NCBI GenBank assembly: GCA_021789565.1 | Contig: JAJYJL010000189.1 | Location: forward strand, 1 to 9,741 | Reading direction: 5' to 3' | Source of the DNA: Acidobacteriota bacterium | GTDB lineage: Bacteria > Acidobacteriota > Terriglobia > UBA7540 | DNA length: 9,741 nucleotides | Part shown: piece after piece, positions 1 to 9,741 of the stretch | Layout: every line of letters starts with the position of its first letter | Numbering within the stretch: the stretch's first letter is position 1 | Notes under the pieces: model-generated | The model's input: only the letters and a program-made list of their open reading frames with translations | Told to the model about the DNA's origin: nothing | Databases searched by the model: none | Program-made: the position numbers and the translations under genes

Positions 1-457
1 GAGAAACCAGTCTCCCTCGCAAGCCAGCAGGAGAAACTTCGGAGATATAGAGGGGGGACAGATTCGATGCCAAGCCAATCGCCATGCCTCCGGTGATACG
101 CCACCCAACAAAGGCATTAAACGTCTGGGCGAAGGCGGTCCCTAAAGAGGAAATAGCGAACAGACAAGCTGCGAGAATCAAGAGGCGCTTGCGACCAAAG
201 CGGTCACTGAGATTGCCGGAAATCGCAGCGCCTAGCAGACAGCCGACCAGAGCACAGCTCATGGCCCAGCCCTGGAGAGACGCATCATTCAGGTGGAAGA
301 ACGCCTCGTAGAACGGCTTCGCTCCACCGATCACAACCCAGTCATATCCGAAGAGGAGCCCACCCAGCCCTGCCGTCAGCGAAATGATCCAGACGTACGA
401 AGTCCTGTATTCAGGCAATACACCTCCAGCTTTAACTTCGACCGAAGTGATATTCAT
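1..457 (-). CDS. Sugar-porter MFS transporter (XylE/GLUT-like), N-terminal part
   Basis: Only the first 152 residues are inside the window; the gene continues beyond position 1. The product is an inner-membrane major facilitator superfamily permease, most likely importing a monosaccharide by proton symport. After a short hydrophilic N-terminus, TM1 (about residues 22-45) carries GYDWVVIGGA, the equivalent of the GYDxxVI(S)GA motif of XylE/GalP/GLUT proteins. The loop between TM2 and TM3 has the MFS signature GNLSDRFGRKR (about 81-91). Residues 120-150 hold R-I-T-G-G-M-A-I-G followed by PLYISEVSPAGLRGRL, the sugar-porter PxYxxExxPxxxRG block. The ATG (455-457) overlaps the stop of the upstream DUF5107/TPR gene as ATGA, so translation is probably coupled, and GAGAAG lies just upstream as a possible ribosome-binding site. 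The substrate cannot be read from this fragment. Family assignment is firm. Confidence 0.93.
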   Translation of the reverse strand, partial: MNITSVEVKAGGVLPEYRTSYVWIISLTAGLGGLLFGYDWVVIGGAKPFYEAFFHLNDASLQGWAMSCALVGCLLGAAISGNLSDRFGRKRLLILAACLFAISSLGTAFAQTFNAFVGWRITGGMAIGLASNLSPLYISEVSPAGLRGRLVS

Positions 458-3400
458 TTGAAGTTCTTCTCGGATGGCAACAACCTTCCCAACTCCAATT
501 GAGCCCAGAGGTGGTTGATATCAAGTTCTAGGACTTGCCGGAACTTCGCTTCCGCCTGCTCTGTCTGGTTCAAGCCAGATTGGGCCAGACCAGCGAGAAA
601 CAGGCAATCGATCTGATTCCGTTTCTGTAAATCATCTTCAAACAGCAGGAAATTAGGTAATGATGTTGCAAAGTAGTCGATCTTAACTTCCGCCGCCAAC
701 TGCTGCGTCGCGCCAGCAAGAAGTTCGCGTAGTGCTCTAAAAGCTTCCTCTTCTTCTCCCAGCTTTCGCAAGGCTAGCGCTCGATAATAAACCATCGGCG
801 AGCGCTTGAGGTCGACTGTGGCAGCTTTTTGAAAGCACACTCTCGCTTTTGCTGGTTCGCTGATGGTCTCGTGGGCAAGCCCAGCAAAGTATTGAAGGTG
901 ATTTTCAGGTGTCAGCAGGTGCTTGCCTTCACCCAAGTTCTCCGGGTAATGCTGCGCTGTTTCAAAATATTCTAACGCTTCCTGCGCCTCCCCAGACTCA
1001 AGGCATTTCAGCCCCAGCATCAAATTAGCCCAGACATACTGTCCCGAAACTAGGCCTTCCCCACCTTCCCAAGGGTGAAAACGGCGCGCAAGGAGAATCT
1101 GCAACGCCTTTTCGGGCTTGCCGGTCTGATTGTAAAGAGTGGCCCGCTCGAGGGTCAGGTCATCACGCTGTTCAACTAGATATTGGTGTTTCTCAAGTTT
1201 CTCCAATCGGGCGTCGGGTGAAGCACCCGTGCGCTTGGACAACTGATCCATTTCATAGAGCAGTCGCGGGTCTGCAGAATTAGTTTCGAATGCTCGACGA
1301 TAGGCGTCAACGGCTTTGGTAGCTTCGTGCCGCACGTTGTAGTACGCAATACCTAAGTTTCTCCATGCGATTGCAAAGGAAGGATTTAATTCGCAGGACT
1401 TCTGCCAGTTCCCGATGGCCTCTTCGTAGCGCTTTTTGTCATAAAGCAGATTGCCGAGATAGTAGCAGGCCTTAGAATCTTCGGGGTCGGCGCGCCGAGC
1501 GCTTTCAAGAATCAGCAGTTCCTCCAAGCGCACTGGAAAACAGTAGTCAGGCGAGGCAGTCGAAGCACTTCGGCGAAAATCACAGGCGCTCTCCGCATTA
1601 CCCATCTGCTCATGACAATAAGCCAGCGCGTACAAAACTATTGGATAGACTGATCCCGTTCCACCATTCGAAGGCAACAGCCTTCCAAGAAGTTCCAACA
1701 CCTCATCCCACAAACCAGCGTTCGAATAATCGAAGGCAATATCCAGATAAGTCTGGACATCACCTCGCATGAGTTGGCGCAATTCCTTGGTTAAGCTCTC
1801 TTTGCGCTTTTCATCGTGCATGGCCATGCACACCAAGACGAGCTCAGTCCGGGACCAGAAGTCAAGCGAGTCCATGATCACCGTTTCCTGCACCAGCTTT
1901 TCTGCCCGATCGCTCTGCCCGGTTCGACGCAGGATTGCAGACATAAGATTACGAGCCTTCAGGTTTGACGCATTGACAGCCAGTGCCCGTTCAAGATGGT
2001 CGATCGCGCTTTCATAATGGCGGTGCCAGCAATCGATTTCAGCCAGCGCGTAATAACTGGCGCCCTGCCATGCGTAGCTCCAGGTTGCTTTGTAAAAGGC
2101 CGGGTAGGATTCTTCAAGGCGATGCTGAAACTTCAGAGCCAGCCCCAGGTTGTAGTAGGGCTCGCCATCAGACGGGTTCGGATTCCAGCGGGTCAGCCTT
2201 TGAATCGCACGACGAAAGCGTTTTTCGGCCTCCTGGAATTGTCCTCGGCGCAGATACTGGAGCCCCATCGCATTGTTAGCGCGAATATCGCCAGAGTCAC
2301 GGTTGAGCAACTCACGCCAGTACGACTCCGGATACCGTGTTGCATGTCTGTATTGCTTGAGATGTAAGCCGGTTAAGTAGAGTTCTTCATTCGTTTCGGT
2401 TTGTTCTGGGGGCGGTGGCTCCGTGGCGGGAGGCCCTACCGATTTGCCTTTGAAATTCTCCGGTTGATATCGAATCAATTCATGGCCGGCGAGATCGACA
2501 ACTTTCAACAATAACTGCGTTGAGTCAACTGTCGATGGAAGATCAAGTTGCTCGATCAGCGGTTTTGCAGGATCCAGATTGACGGCTTGTTCAAAAAGAA
2601 CTCTTTTACCGGAAGTAAGAATCACTTTTGCTCCCGGAAGACTTTCCGCAGCACAGGCACCAAGTTTCAACTTCCCGTGGTTGGTTTCCAAACTCACGGC
2701 AAGCTTCCGATTGGCATTCACAGGGGGGCCAATCTCGCGGATAGGGTACCAGTACTGCGTGAAGGTCTTGGTCTCGTAAGGTTGAAGCCAGGAGAAATCC
2801 GGCTGGTTGTCGGTATAGACACCAGCCATCAGTTCAACGTAGGGACCGTCCGAATCGGTTAGCTCACGATCCCAAGCGTAACCAAACTCGGCATTACCCC
2901 AAGTCCAAAGCTTCTTGCCCGGAGAAATGTGATGGTCGGCAACGTGAACGAATCCTGCATTCCTTGCATGATCATAACCTCCGAAAAAGTCGTAGCGCGA
3001 CTCGGGCACCATGTATGAGGTGGGCACGGGAATGTTCTTGTACCAGCGCAGGTCAACGCCGCATGTGTAATCAACCCCGTAATAAAACCCACGTGCGGTG
3101 GGGAACTCTGACGTGGCGCGCTTTGCATGGTCGGCAACGTACCTCACGTCAGGAGGGAAAACCGCCTCATATTGGTCATGCGTATGAACCCCGACATTTG
3201 CCCACCAGAGAAAAGTTTGTACGAAAGGCGTTCGGTTGTAGAGCCGGACTCGGGCCTCCACCAGACTTTTACCAGGGTGCAGGCAGATGCCCACCATGCC
3301 CTTCATGCGGTTCATTGGCTCGTGCTCGCTCAGCCACACGATCCTGCTACCGTCCCGACATTCCTCAATCGAATAGTCGACCGGCATGAAGGTGGAAGGG

Positions 3401-3780
3401 CGATGGTGCTGTGGCCAGTTAAACTCAACACCGCCGGAAATCCATGGTCCCAGCAATCCTACCAATGCGGGTTTGATCACGTGCTGCTGGTAAAAGAAGT
3501 CGAATTGGTTCGTTTTGTCTTGACCAACATGGATGCGACCGCCAATTTCCGGCAGGATCATCAATTTGACGTATTCGTTTTCCAGAAGAACAGCACGGTA
3601 TGCATGGGCCCTTTTCTCATCAGAGACACGGTCCGTAAAAGGGCTAGGGTATACCTTGCCGCTGCTCCCCTGATAGACTCGCTTTTCCAGAAACATCGGG
3701 TTCAAATCAGCCGCAGGAACAGAATACGTCGGAATCGTTACCGTTTCCTCCCGCACATGGACAAGTTCATCTCGTTTCAT
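454..3780 (-). CDS. DUF5107 domain protein with C-terminal TPR repeats
   Basis: A 1108-residue protein of two parts. Residues about 40-345 match the DUF5107 family, whose members are thought to adopt the galactose-mutarotase-like beta-sandwich of carbohydrate enzymes; recognisable blocks are ILPEIGGRI (75-83), LGPWISGGVEFNWPQHHRP (110-128) and the aromatic WWANVGVHTHD stretch (192-202). A proline-rich linker (about 449-459) leads to a long TPR region (about 500-1105) with repeats such as NNAMGLQYLRRGQFQEAEKR (502-521), others containing YYNLGLALKF and YYLGNLLYDKKRYEEAI, and a last one near 1065-1100. No signal peptide or membrane segment is evident, so it should be cytoplasmic. The length is typical of DUF5107-TPR proteins. 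The ATG at 3780 is the natural start, but no strong Shine-Dalgarno precedes it; two tiny ORFs lie just upstream. Overlap with the MFS gene suggests joint work on a transported sugar or glycoside. The enzymatic reaction is not known to me; binding or hydrolysis of a glycan is inference. Confidence 0.9.
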   Translation of the reverse strand: MKRDELVHVREETVTIPTYSVPAADLNPMFLEKRVYQGSSGKVYPSPFTDRVSDEKRAHAYRAVLLENEYVKLMILPEIGGRIHVGQDKTNQFDFFYQQHVIKPALVGLLGPWISGGVEFNWPQHHRPSTFMPVDYSIEECRDGSRIVWLSEHEPMNRMKGMVGICLHPGKSLVEARVRLYNRTPFVQTFLWWANVGVHTHDQYEAVFPPDVRYVADHAKRATSEFPTARGFYYGVDYTCGVDLRWYKNIPVPTSYMVPESRYDFFGGYDHARNAGFVHVADHHISPGKKLWTWGNAEFGYAWDRELTDSDGPYVELMAGVYTDNQPDFSWLQPYETKTFTQYWYPIREIGPPVNANRKLAVSLETNHGKLKLGACAAESLPGAKVILTSGKRVLFEQAVNLDPAKPLIEQLDLPSTVDSTQLLLKVVDLAGHELIRYQPENFKGKSVGPPATEPPPPEQTETNEELYLTGLHLKQYRHATRYPESYWRELLNRDSGDIRANNAMGLQYLRRGQFQEAEKRFRRAIQRLTRWNPNPSDGEPYYNLGLALKFQHRLEESYPAFYKATWSYAWQGASYYALAEIDCWHRHYESAIDHLERALAVNASNLKARNLMSAILRRTGQSDRAEKLVQETVIMDSLDFWSRTELVLVCMAMHDEKRKESLTKELRQLMRGDVQTYLDIAFDYSNAGLWDEVLELLGRLLPSNGGTGSVYPIVLYALAYCHEQMGNAESACDFRRSASTASPDYCFPVRLEELLILESARRADPEDSKACYYLGNLLYDKKRYEEAIGNWQKSCELNPSFAIAWRNLGIAYYNVRHEATKAVDAYRRAFETNSADPRLLYEMDQLSKRTGASPDARLEKLEKHQYLVEQRDDLTLERATLYNQTGKPEKALQILLARRFHPWEGGEGLVSGQYVWANLMLGLKCLESGEAQEALEYFETAQHYPENLGEGKHLLTPENHLQYFAGLAHETISEPAKARVCFQKAATVDLKRSPMVYYRALALRKLGEEEEAFRALRELLAGATQQLAAEVKIDYFATSLPNFLLFEDDLQKRNQIDCLFLAGLAQSGLNQTEQAEAKFRQVLELDINHLWAQLELGRLLPSEKNFK

Positions 3781-4303: not shown

Positions 4304-4882
4304 CTACTTGAGCGCTTTGCAGATGCTGGCTTTGCTCACCTGATACTTTTTCGCCAGTTCGTTCAGGCTCATGCCGTGGGCCCGGTCTTTAAGCACGGCA
4401 TCAAGATCCAACTGCAGCCTCGGCCTTCCGATCCGCCGGCCTTCCAGCTTCGCCCGCCTCAATCCCGCCTTCACTCTCTCCCTGATCAACGACCGCTCCA
4501 ACTCCGCAACGACACCGACAATCACCAGCACGGCCCTCCCCAGCGGCCCGCTTGTATCAATCTGCTCCCGGAAGCTGATGAACTCGATGTTCATGTGAGC
4601 CATCTCGTCCAGCACCTGGAGAGAATGCCTGACTGATCTCGCCACCCGATCCGAAGCCCAGACCAGCAATACATTGAATTTCCCCTGCCGGGCGTCAGCC
4701 ATCATCCGATCCAGTCCCGGCCGTGAATCTCTGGCGCCGGTGACTTTGTCTTCGTAGATGCTGGTGATTTCCAGTCCCCTCTGCCTGGGCAGTTGCCTCA
4801 GATCATGCAGTTGAGTCTCGGGATGCTGCTCCAGCTTTGAAACACGCAGGTAGAGAACAGCCTTCCGGGTATCGGTATTCAT
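4304..4882 (-). CDS. Serine recombinase, resolvase/invertase family
   Basis: A complete 192-residue small serine recombinase (Tn3 resolvase/Hin type), which cuts and rejoins DNA at a res- or inversion-type site through a 5'-phosphoserine link. The N-terminal YLRVSK block places the catalytic Ser at residue 15 with Arg13 beside it. WASDRVARS (75-83) supplies the D-R-x-x-R catalytic arginines (79 and 82). AELERSLIRERVKAGLRRAK (126-145) is the E-helix typical of the family, followed by EGRRIGRPR and a C-terminal helix-turn-helix (about 171-190, MSLNELAKKYQVSKASICKA). The ATG at 4882 is preceded by GAGGGAG at good spacing. The stop is TAG, giving the normal family length, so TAG acts as stop here. 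It may serve a transposon, a prophage or an inversion switch; no transposase accompanies it in the window, and no res site was identified in the 300 bp upstream. Confidence 0.93.
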   Translation of the reverse strand: MNTDTRKAVLYLRVSKLEQHPETQLHDLRQLPRQRGLEITSIYEDKVTGARDSRPGLDRMMADARQGKFNVLLVWASDRVARSVRHSLQVLDEMAHMNIEFISFREQIDTSGPLGRAVLVIVGVVAELERSLIRERVKAGLRRAKLEGRRIGRPRLQLDLDAVLKDRAHGMSLNELAKKYQVSKASICKALK

Positions 4883-5280: not shown

Positions 5281-5691
5281 GTGGAATGCTCCACCCTGAC
5301 TGTCTCCATCCACCGGGAAAAGGCCCCCGTCCGGGCCTGTGGTTACATCAACCCCAAAGGATTTGCCCGCGGCCGGAGGACCATTGCCGGCACCCTGATC
5401 CTCACCCAATTTAGTGTAGACGTCCTCTTCCGCTTCCTGCAGGCCGTCCTGCCTCACGATTTCTCGAGCGACTCGACCTATGTCAAAGTCGATCAGTTGC
5501 CGCCCTTCAACGCCACCATCCTCTTCGCGGATGAATACGGCAACGCCAGCTGCCGGCGCCTGCTGGGGCTCGAGTTTGTCACCGACGGCACGGTTTATTC
5601 CATCCAGGACCTGCTCAGTGAGCAGACCATCAGCTACATGGCTAGCGACTTTACACGGTCGTGGCAGAGGAAATTGGGAAGTTTTTTGTAG
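5281..5691 (+). CDS. Phage virion (tail-type) structural protein, N-terminally truncated
   Basis: This 136-residue frame resembles the C-terminal two thirds of a family of phage virion structural proteins that share a (S/T)REKAPV...NP+xFxRGxRxIAGxL core, then LPPFD(I/V)T...A-NEYG and a closing S-x-x-D-x-x-(S/T)E...(M/T)YxA-RD strand. Here one reads SIHREKAPV (residues 9-17), NPKGFARGRRTIAGTLIL (24-41), QLPPFNATILFADEYGNA (72-89) and SIQDLLSEQTISYMASDF (107-124). The assignment rests on remembered family pattern, not a search. The frame is open from 5233, after TAA at 5230, but contains no ATG near the expected N-terminus; the GTG at 5281 has no ribosome-binding site, and the usual first 30-50 residues are missing. 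It ends in TAG. It stands alone, without capsid, terminase or lysis genes, so it is likely a prophage or tailocin remnant beside a recombinase. Confidence 0.5.
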   Translation: MECSTLTVSIHREKAPVRACGYINPKGFARGRRTIAGTLILTQFSVDVLFRFLQAVLPHDFSSDSTYVKVDQLPPFNATILFADEYGNASCRRLLGLEFVTDGTVYSIQDLLSEQTISYMASDFTRSWQRKLGSFL

Positions 5692-7008: not shown

Positions 7009-7030
7009 CGGCTGAGACACCCCGGCCCTC

Positions 7031-9471
7031 ATGGAAAAAGCAAGTGTAAGAATCCGGCCATTACGATGCGCATTCGCGGTCGATCCAAAAGACATATCCG
7101 CCCTGATGCGCGTCTTTGAGGTGAATTCTGCGCTTTGGGGAGGGCTCTACAATTTCATCCTGCCCCTCCTCAAACGGGTACCCGATCGATATAAAGAGCC
7201 TTATCGAAAGAAAATCAAGACAGCAGCCCTCGTCTAGGGTTTAGTGGACGCGTTTCAACCTGATCTTATAGTTGAATCAGAAGAGGGTCTCGCAGCATTC
7301 CTCAACTTTCCTGAACGGCACACGATCACCCTCGATCAACTCCTCGCTCGCGACGAGCGCGGTGCCTGCAATTACGGTGTGGATTTGCGAACGATTGTCT
7401 CCGATCTTTACGAAACAACTTTCCGTTTCGTTCAGCGTCACCCGCCAGAAGTGGTCATCCCCTCAAGCGCCGATCCTCAATACGACCTGTTGTACGCTGC
7501 ACTTTTTGGATCGCTTTCCGAGAACGGTCCCGCTGGGGATTGCTCCGAGCATTTCCTAAAAGCTCTCGATGGTAAGCGCCAGTCTTTCTCACCGGCAGAT
7601 TTTCCGAAACTATTCGACCGCAAATATCTCTACCCCCTTCGGGTAGCTGTGCACGCCTTTGAAACACGACGGAACAGTTGGAGCATCGATTCAAAGCTAT
7701 ACTATATGGATGAGCGGTCGGCTCTTGACCTCATCGACTTTTGGAATTTGCGGGCTCTTGGGTGGGATATTACCCCGCTCCCTGCGTCTCTAGCGTCCTC
7801 CCTGAGCGGTTTCCACGAAGAATTCATCAAAAAGAGCTATCGTCCCTACCCACCCCCATCGAACGCATATCATCATGCTTCTTTCCTGTGCTCGCCGAGC
7901 AATGAGCGCGCCGAATTGCAGGGGTTCTTATCTACTCTTAAGCGACCTCATGAGAGGGCACGTCACATAGCTGTAAGCATGGATATGCGGGTACCGAGAA
8001 TAGGGGAGTAGTGGGGACGGAGTGCGGATCATGTAGAGCGGCAAACAGTCACCGAAAGCAGTACGAGTGTGGACTTCCGTCTCATCGGCTCCGGCTTGCA
8101 TGTGTCTACCGCAATCCCGAAATTCCTACAAGACGATCGGTATGCTTCCTCGCAGCACGCGTGTGCAAACGGGCTTGAATATGTTCCTGGGGGCGCTGCG
8201 GTTATCCCCTGGGCAATCGGTGAACTAACTGGCATCATCCACGACTTTGCTGACGCGGATGTCTGGTTATCGCAGGAGGGTATTGTAACCACGGCCAGGT
8301 TTTCCAGCCTTAGATTCTTGAGGGCTCCCAGCCCGAAGAACGTCTTTTCGGCTTTCGCCAGGGGCAAGGGATTGAATCTTGCGATCTCTCCCGCAGGGAA
8401 TGCCTGCGAGCAGATCATCAAGGCACTCGGGGGGCTGCTAGGGATCAGTATCGTCGCTCGCCCGAACTGCTCCGTTTCCTCGACCGCCTCGCACATGAAA
8501 ACTTCGAAGTCGAAAACGATACTGAACCATCGAAGAAGGTGCGGAAAGCATATGCGTCTTACCCGAACGCTCTTGAAATTGTGAAGCGCTCAGTACTGGA
8601 ACCAGAGATCTCGGCAATGAACTTCTTCAACGCGCTCATCAACACGGGAGTCCTGACTGTAGGGCTTACGTTGCATTGCAGTGAGTGCAGCCACTCCAGT
8701 TGGCCCCCTCGGAATTTTCTCGGACCAAGTGTCACGTGTCCGAGATGCCTTGGTTCCATCGCCTTCCCCTCTTCCCTTCCGCCTCGCAGGGTGGACTGGG
8801 CTTACAAGGTGGGCGGACCCTTCGCAGCGGAGCACTTTGCCCATGGTGCTTATTGTGTCGCTTCGACGCTTCACTTTCTGGTTAAAAAGGTTTTTGACGA
8901 ATCAACGTGGCTCCCGAGCTTCCGGCTCACGAATGCCGAAGGCAAAGCAGTTGAGGTAGATTTCGGGATGTTTGCGCGCCCCAATCGCTTCAGCTATGCA
9001 ACATCTCCGTTCCTAATCGTTGGTGAATGCAAGTCTTTCAATTATTTCGAAGCGAAGGATTTCGCTAAGGCTCGCTACATGGCAAGCCTCTTTCCAGGGG
9101 CAGTCCTTTGCTTTGCGACTTTCCGCGAAACCCTCACTCAGGGCGAGATCAAAGCCCTGACGAGAATCGTATTACGTGGCAGGAAATCCCTTCGGACCGG
9201 AAAGCATCTCAATCCCGTGCTTATCCTTACTGCCAAGGAGTTATTTTCTCAGTTTCAATGGGATCGACAGTTGCACGAAGCGTATGGCGATAGGTCGAAG
9301 CACGCAGAGGCGGTTTTCCTGCGACGAGACATCGAAGAGCTGTGCAGCTTCCTCCAGCAGGTCCATCTCGGCATGGGTTCGTATCATGAGTGGTTAGAAG
9401 AGAAGCGGCAACAGCGTGTCGCGCGAATGACCAAGCTGAAGACGACAGCTAACGCTCCTCCAGACAATTGA
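7031..9471 (+). pseudogene. Broken zinc-ribbon and PD-(D/E)XK nuclease-like protein
   Basis: One gene of about 813 codons, now in pieces. From ATG 7031 a single frame runs to about 8464, interrupted by TAG at 7235-7237 (codon 69) and TAG at 8009-8011 (codon 327); protein-like sequence continues directly across both. A 1-nt loss, probably in the CCC run at 8461-8463, then moves the reading to the frame that ends with TGA at 9471; with one C restored the text reads IVARPELLRFLDRL. Numbering as restored: an N-terminal region (IRPLR...VDP, then NSALWGGLYNFILP), a middle DLIDFWNLRALGW block (about 235-250), a zinc ribbon with Cys 550, 553, 570 and 573, and a nuclease motif with Asp644 (VEVDFG) and Glu666-x-Lys668 (VGECKSF), the pattern of PD-(D/E)XK/Mrr-like enzymes. 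I recall similar proteins of about 800 residues only as uncharacterised. DNA binding and cleavage is inference. It has no partner gene in the window. Confidence 0.75.
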
Positions 9472-9741
9472 TTTGAATAGAACTGACCCGGCGTTCAAAA
9501 ATCTGAGACTGCACCGACTAAGGTGCGTGCCAGGGCCAAGGTCGCGAAATTTGACCGAGAAAACTGCGCCAGCAGTCCGTTTGTGAGGATAAGTTGACAG
9601 AAGTGGTCAATCTGCCGGGTAACGGGCTAACCTCCCGCTCGCCCAGCTAATCCGACTTATCTTCAGGCCAGCCGTTAGGAGGCGGCTGGCCATGATGAGA
9701 AAATCAAAGGGGATTAGAAAGAAGACCCGTCGACCTTAGGT
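9472..9741. other. Non-coding right end of the window
   Basis: About 270 bp after the broken nuclease gene. Features are a GCACC-GACTAA-GGTGC stem (9511-9526) without a T-tract, a TTGAC...GTCAA inverted repeat (9594-9610), and the strong hairpin at 9666-9691. No terminator, tRNA or recognisable coding sequence longer than 15 codons was found. Confidence 0.5.
9666..9697 (+). promoter_or_regulatory. Hairpin presenting a Shine-Dalgarno in its loop
   Basis: GGCCAGCCG (9666-9674) and CGGCTGGCC (9683-9691) form a perfect 9-bp GC-rich stem. The 8-nt loop TTAGGAGG contains a full AGGAGG (9677-9682). ATG follows at 9692 and again at 9695, at normal distance from AGGAGG. Such a structure could modulate ribosome access. 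The ORF it would start, MMRKSKGIRKKTRRP, meets TAG at 9737-9739, so the target may be a tiny basic peptide or nothing. No T-tract follows, so a terminator is unlikely. Confidence 0.4.

Follow-up and report, generated by a model that had tools for sequence, protein, structure and literature searches.

A family of zinc-ribbon PD-(D/E)XK nucleases with a two-lobed Rossmann-like N-terminus, met as a broken gene in an Acidobacteriota contig, is a candidate single-gene defence system

The closest described counterparts of the protein analyzed here are the nucleases Can2 and Card1, in which the nuclease domain is preceded by a CARF domain and which are reported to cut DNA and/or RNA upon binding of cyclic tetra-adenylate (cA4) (PMC7969007, PMC11229360). 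The window, a stretch of 9,741 nucleotides from an Acidobacteriota bacterium (contig JAJYJL010000189.1, assembly GCA_021789565.1), contains on the plus strand, at 7031..9471, a broken gene for a protein of about 814 residues that shares the nuclease fold and the E-x-D...E-x-K site of Can2, Card1 and Cdn1. The family to which this protein belongs has a two-lobed, Rossmann-like N-terminus of about 430 residues where the Can2/Card1 group has CARF, and contains an added zinc ribbon compared with the Can2/Card1/VC1899 group; the chains of Can2, Card1, Cdn1 and VC1899 consist of 342-437 residues (614 in Can1). The reading favored here, which we consider reasonably likely, is that of a defence nuclease that works on its own and has spread horizontally, with the window locus being a recently broken copy.

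The gene is read in frame 2 to about position 8445 and then in frame 1 up to the stop codon at 9469. The frame-2 reading contains in-frame TAG codons at 7235..7237 and 8009..8011, and the frame change is placed at ~8440..8470 by alignment of the pieces to relatives of 800-815 residues, with which both pieces align end to end. The N-terminal and C-terminal pieces match the same intact 802-residue open reading frame (ORF) of a plasmid, annotated as a hypothetical protein, and align end to end with the full-length relative P0123 (78.9% for residues 1-478 and 78.7% for residues 478-815), so that they represent one protein, as proposed in an earlier sequence-only reading, which had joined them into a product of about 813 residues. 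L002, the closest relative among the genome loci, carries its lesions at other places (an out-of-frame stretch with TGA and TAG), and the copy in L007 is also split. TAG recoding and programmed frameshifting are ruled out because the lesions of L002 lie elsewhere and the proteins P0123-P0126 are near full length. The window gene is 77% identical to the L002 DNA, with the match confined to window positions 7026-9473, and the ratio of nonsynonymous to synonymous substitution rates between the two is 0.10 in the N-terminal block and 0.12 in the C-terminal block, indicating that this pair evolved mostly under purifying selection. The window copy appears to have been broken recently, unless the lesions are sequencing errors.

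Direct reading of the C-terminal part reveals a zinc ribbon, C-x2-C-x16-C-x2-C (8677..8748, with the cysteine codons TGC 8677, TGC 8686, TGT 8737 and TGC 8746), followed by a PD-(D/E)XK nuclease domain (8797..9346). The catalytic site consists of Asp 8959-8961, within the motif V-E-V-D, and, 22 residues beyond it, Glu 9025-9027, which together with Lys 9031-9033 belongs to the motif G-E-C-K. The codons bear out the positions of the ribbon and of D...E-x-K reported in the sequence-only reading; an extra glutamate two residues ahead of the aspartate (8953-8955) turns out to matter, extending the site to E-x-D...E-x-K. The conservation of these residues was assessed starting from 160 relatives identified in a collection with one genome per species (84,980 species); the 80 top-ranking loci served for genome analysis. 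Open copies are plentiful (77 of 81 loci): 76 come from genome loci and one from a viral contig, the four loci not counted being L002, L007 and L035, which are split, and L079, for which no gene was called. L001 was also excluded. The four cysteines and E644, D646, E668 and K670 (P0123 numbering) are each present in 77/77 open ORFs, and their equivalents are invariant in 21 near-full-length members of a distant branch, of which at least 26 were found. A chance motif is ruled out by the 77/77 conservation. The 80 genome loci were selected with three patterns containing WGG, EPD and WAY...GPF, so that conservation there is partly selected, whereas the cysteines, E-x-D, E-x-K and D233/W238/N239/R241 are independent of these patterns; the single viral locus (L082) was identified with patterns that contain D-I-x-W-N. 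The locus L033 enters the conservation, neighbor-gene and strand counts and is left out of the context sets, the host-genome searches from the Cas10 search onward, the tree and set A5; L051 is left out of set A5.

Two structures were predicted, one of them for the N-terminal block folded alone. A fold search started with the confident model identifies CARF nucleases and restriction enzymes as the best matches to the C-terminal half, with a PD-(D/E)XK fold around the D...E-x-K residues. The matches closest to the nuclease part are Cdn1, Card1, Can2 and VC1899, with low TM-scores. The alignment to the CARF nucleases starts at model residue 433-439 in 6 of the first 14 rows and takes in a helical, winged-helix-like region ahead of the ribbon (approximately residues 433-540, 8324..8640), which spans the frameshift. 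Given this fold and the invariant residues, the assignment of the nuclease domain and its catalytic residues is very probably correct, and the zinc ribbon of the sequence-only reading is likewise upheld. Under a different view, the protein would be a restriction-like enzyme that reads foreign or modified DNA through the winged helix and the zinc ribbon, by the logic of solitary type II or type IV enzymes, the N-terminus serving for DNA binding or dimerization. The type IIS/IIP enzymes (FokI, BspD6I small subunit, BstEII) score lower Z than the CARF nucleases, and the family differs from them in having no fixed methylase partner and a distinct N-terminus. Mrr and type IV restriction enzymes have the same order of PD-(D/E)XK motifs as this family, but Pfam scans of the window pieces and of the homologs scanned yield no match to the Mrr profile, which rules out membership in Mrr, to which the nuclease had at first been likened. 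A restriction-like enzyme is, on balance, an unlikely account of the family.

The N-terminal half comprises two Rossmann-like lobes with approximate boundaries. The first, with W36-G37-G38 (approximately residues 1-205, 7031..7645), is delineated by the predicted structures and by conservation, and the second, with D233...W238-N239-x-R241 (approximately residues 206-335, 7646..8035), by the N-terminal model, fold-search rows spanning ~213-336 and conservation. They are followed by a beta-rich connector (approximately residues 336-432, 8036..8323), seen in the secondary structure of both models, and predicted with lower confidence when folded alone, with a predicted local distance difference test (pLDDT) score of mostly 59-87. 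The WGG and D residues of the lobes are invariant. A search started with the N-terminal model alone recovers Rossmann-like lobes with no confident match; CARF is not among the matches listed for this model, which leaves CARF possible. The region, stated in the sequence-only reading to hold no nameable domain, is not featureless, having two Rossmann-like lobes with invariant WGG and D. A viral fold library contains two Bacillus phage proteins that match with E-values of 1.4e-4 and 4.4e-4; sequence searches of PDB return nothing useful.

This architecture is compatible with the following scheme, in which the sensor role of the N-terminus has about an even chance of being right. In intact members, the two-lobed N-terminus would sense an infection signal, such as a small ligand, a nucleotide or a viral component, and would hold the nuclease in check until that signal is met. 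The signal would then release the module of winged helix, zinc ribbon and PD-(D/E)XK domain, of the Can2/Card1 type, and the released module would cut DNA and/or RNA with the help of a metal ion at its invariant E-x-D...E-x-K site. Cleavage, control by an N-terminal ligand and an antiphage outcome are the presumed consequences of such an arrangement.

At the level of sequence, the link to the CARF nucleases is faint. A comparison with 19 Can2/Card1 proteins using hhalign gives E-values of 0.22-0.34 (nuclease half), 0.13 (N-terminal half) and 0.097 (distant branch); the alignment covers just the E-x-D...E-x-K stretch and is not significant. The PF09002 (DUF1887) profile is absent from Pfam scans of homologs (10 proteins in each of two) and is matched at E<=1e-3 in 1 of 45 host genomes, by another gene: in G041 the PF09002 (Card1/Can2-like) gene is on contig C125, ~5 kb from a Cas10 match, and the family gene is on C93, from which it follows that the two kinds coexist.

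Along with this resemblance of the nuclease fold and catalytic residues to Can2/Card1/Cdn1 and with the Rossmann-like N-terminus, the search of 49 host genomes of the 80 loci for Cas10 and SMODS bears on the view that the protein acts as an effector switched on by a cyclic nucleotide, be it cyclic oligoadenylate or a different one, that type III CRISPR (clustered regularly interspaced short palindromic repeats) systems or the cyclic oligonucleotide-based antiphage signaling system (CBASS) produce. SMODS cyclases score over the cut-off in 15/49 hosts, which fits that view, this being a raw count with no background rate for either SMODS or Cas10. The Cas10 palm is matched in 23/49 hosts at E<=1e-3, in 12/49 over the family cut-off and in 5/49 at E<1e-9. 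The best scores in the other 18 Cas10-matching hosts are ~20-30 bits, and an E. coli control is also over the cut-off; these weak matches are read as cross-hits to GGDEF domains. Strong Cas10 is absent in 44/49 hosts, and thus the family shows no general association with type III CRISPR, for which VC1899 is a known exception within the Can2/Card1 group. These counts make a dedicated cyclic-oligoadenylate pathway unlikely for most members; no neighbor gene is common to the loci either, and activation by a cyclic nucleotide appears improbable. A more specific proposal, which we put forward tentatively and regard as less probable than the general defence reading, is a CRISPR-independent one-gene immune receptor, found in at least 17 phyla, in which the two-lobed Rossmann sensor with its WGG/D pocket replaces CARF ahead of a Can2-type nuclease and responds to a signal other than cyclic oligoadenylate. 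The family carries the nuclease half of CRISPR ancillary effectors, with no clear type III CRISPR system in most of the hosts searched, and allows one to ask where the CARF nucleases originated and which other signals are able to drive such effectors.

Far from being an orphan, as had been supposed, the protein has hundreds of relatives, which rules out orphan status. A protein search started with the 802-residue plasmid ORF identifies 543 proteins at E<=1e-3, mostly of ~800-830 residues, none with a Pfam domain among the 120 listed. A search started with the window read-through (814 letters, X at the lesions) finds at least 137 proteins. The best match is P0122 (81% over 97% of the query, without the first 24 residues), and P0123, with 815 residues, matches over its whole length at 78%. 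The organism-named rows of this search (4 of the 120 listed) are Terriglobales (two), Acidobacteriaceae and Acidobacteriota. The read-through and distant-branch searches scored 7997 and 7999 candidates sharing the most words, so that their counts are lower bounds; no Pfam domain occurs in the matches listed for any of the three protein searches. A member of the distant branch, L133:907-3288 in G033 (793 residues), has the same architecture (WGG, zinc ribbon, E-x-D/E-x-K); an HSP90-like HATPase gene adjoins it on the opposite strand. Meaningful matches to Pfam, NCBIfam, PADLOC or PHROGs are lacking for the window pieces and the homologs scanned, and the PADLOC-DB 2.0.0 profiles give a best E-value of 0.0057 (pieces and 10 homologs), in accord with the suggestion that the system is undescribed. 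No description of the family was recognized from titles and abstract openings in the literature, a scope outside which lie the supplementary tables of defence surveys and most subscription journals. Thus, the effector module is known and the front half is undescribed, and this large, solitary family without a name is a candidate for a new single-gene defence system.

Analysis of the genomic contexts reveals no fixed partner. The largest cluster of neighbor genes reaches no more than 7 of 82 loci. A same-strand gene lies upstream in 50/77 and downstream in 34/72 loci, within 60 bp in 15/77 and 13/72, respectively, and these close neighbors are not widely common to the loci, which rules out a fixed partner gene and agrees with a single-gene unit. 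The surroundings are rich in defence genes: for 29 loci, the five genes closest to the family gene (145 in all) match 144 PADLOC models at E<=1e-10 (models rather than genes, with those named here taken from the 25 listed of the 144), including mad2 (4 genes), type IIG, type I restriction, PglX, BrxL, PglZ and DrmMI. The 141 control genes, from the center of stretches of the same genomes located half a contig away (2 of 143 dropped for size), match 2. An N6_Mtase gene (PF02384, E<=1e-10) is located within 15 kb of the family gene in 9/49 genomes, compared with 0.88 expected if the genes were placed evenly (Poisson P 4e-7; the nine were picked by eye and the distances then recomputed), and in none of the remaining 40. 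These nine include three Poribacteria that have a related gene of ~1020-1050 residues nearby and are therefore not independent; with the five Poribacteria genomes removed, 6/44 remain against 0.59 expected (P 4e-5), and the methylase enrichment holds. On this context, a defence role is probable: the claim of a defence-type system is upheld by surroundings enriched above the control, whereas antiphage activity is presumed and the window copy is broken.

The Pfam matches of the 145 neighbors also include transposases, integrases, resolvases, metabolic genes and a gene of a type IV secretion system, a mixture that points to variable islands. Such neighbors, together with the phage remnant and the serine recombinase that the window contains, could also indicate a mobile-element or DNA repair and processing function, with entry into defence islands as a by-product of mobility. 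One relative indeed belongs to a plasmid, typed as non-mobilizable, with some genes for conjugation and a toxin of the RnlA family. This explanation is improbable given that the gene is a fixed part of none of the elements seen, that the neighbors differ between loci and that the control stretches lack the defence signal; furthermore, none of 50,697 phage records matches the family, and viral contigs, silent when searched with the C-terminal piece, yield one locus (L082) with the family profile, by which a phage-borne gene is ruled out.

The tree of the family comprises 78 rows, with 17 phylum names and 7 rows without a phylum label. In it, the C-terminal piece of the window gene joins P0123 within the Acidobacteriota, which, along with the organism names of the protein search, makes an acidobacterial host probable. 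Along the tree, the phylum label switches 26 times, with a minimum of 16 and a shuffle mean of 38.9, showing a distribution that is both clustered and patchy; e.g., Syntrophaceae group with Falkowbacteria and Stahlbacteria with a support of 100. This pattern fits horizontal spread but falls short of proof because genome bins may contain stray contigs. There is usually one copy per genome (30 + 20 genomes searched whole, all chosen as locus holders), the exceptions being a second, split copy in G012, a distant relative in G033 and broken copies in pieces in G002 and G031. The DNA of a Citrobacter relative was found in none of the E. coli genomes.

Several local associations were observed. In L012, L015, L020, L028 and L051 (four Poribacteria and one Legionellaceae bin), a related gene of ~990-1630 residues is encoded on the opposite strand 33 bp-2.6 kb downstream, with weak N6_Mtase matches inside it in L012, L015 and L020. 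In two alphaproteobacteria, related genes of 324-326 residues (L019:4845-5816 and L025:9008-9985) lie directly upstream on the same strand and are a possible local partner.

In the window itself, the mobile surroundings noticed in the sequence-only reading are recovered by profile searches: a serine recombinase (Resolvase, PF00239, E 4.1e-39) at 4304..4882 on the minus strand, whose translated matches flank family genes in L009, L050, L057, L058 and L063, and, on the plus strand at 5281..5691, a remnant resembling a phage major head protein (phrog_9206, E 7.2e-24; 41% to that of Moorella phage MTATph1) within DNA that has an otherwise chromosomal appearance. Rfam, tRNA and tandem-repeat searches return nothing useful. 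On the opposite side of the variable stretch are what look like ordinary metabolic genes, a DUF5107 and TPR protein of 1108 residues (454-3780, minus strand) and, next after it, the start of an apparent sugar transporter, recognized by eye (2-457).
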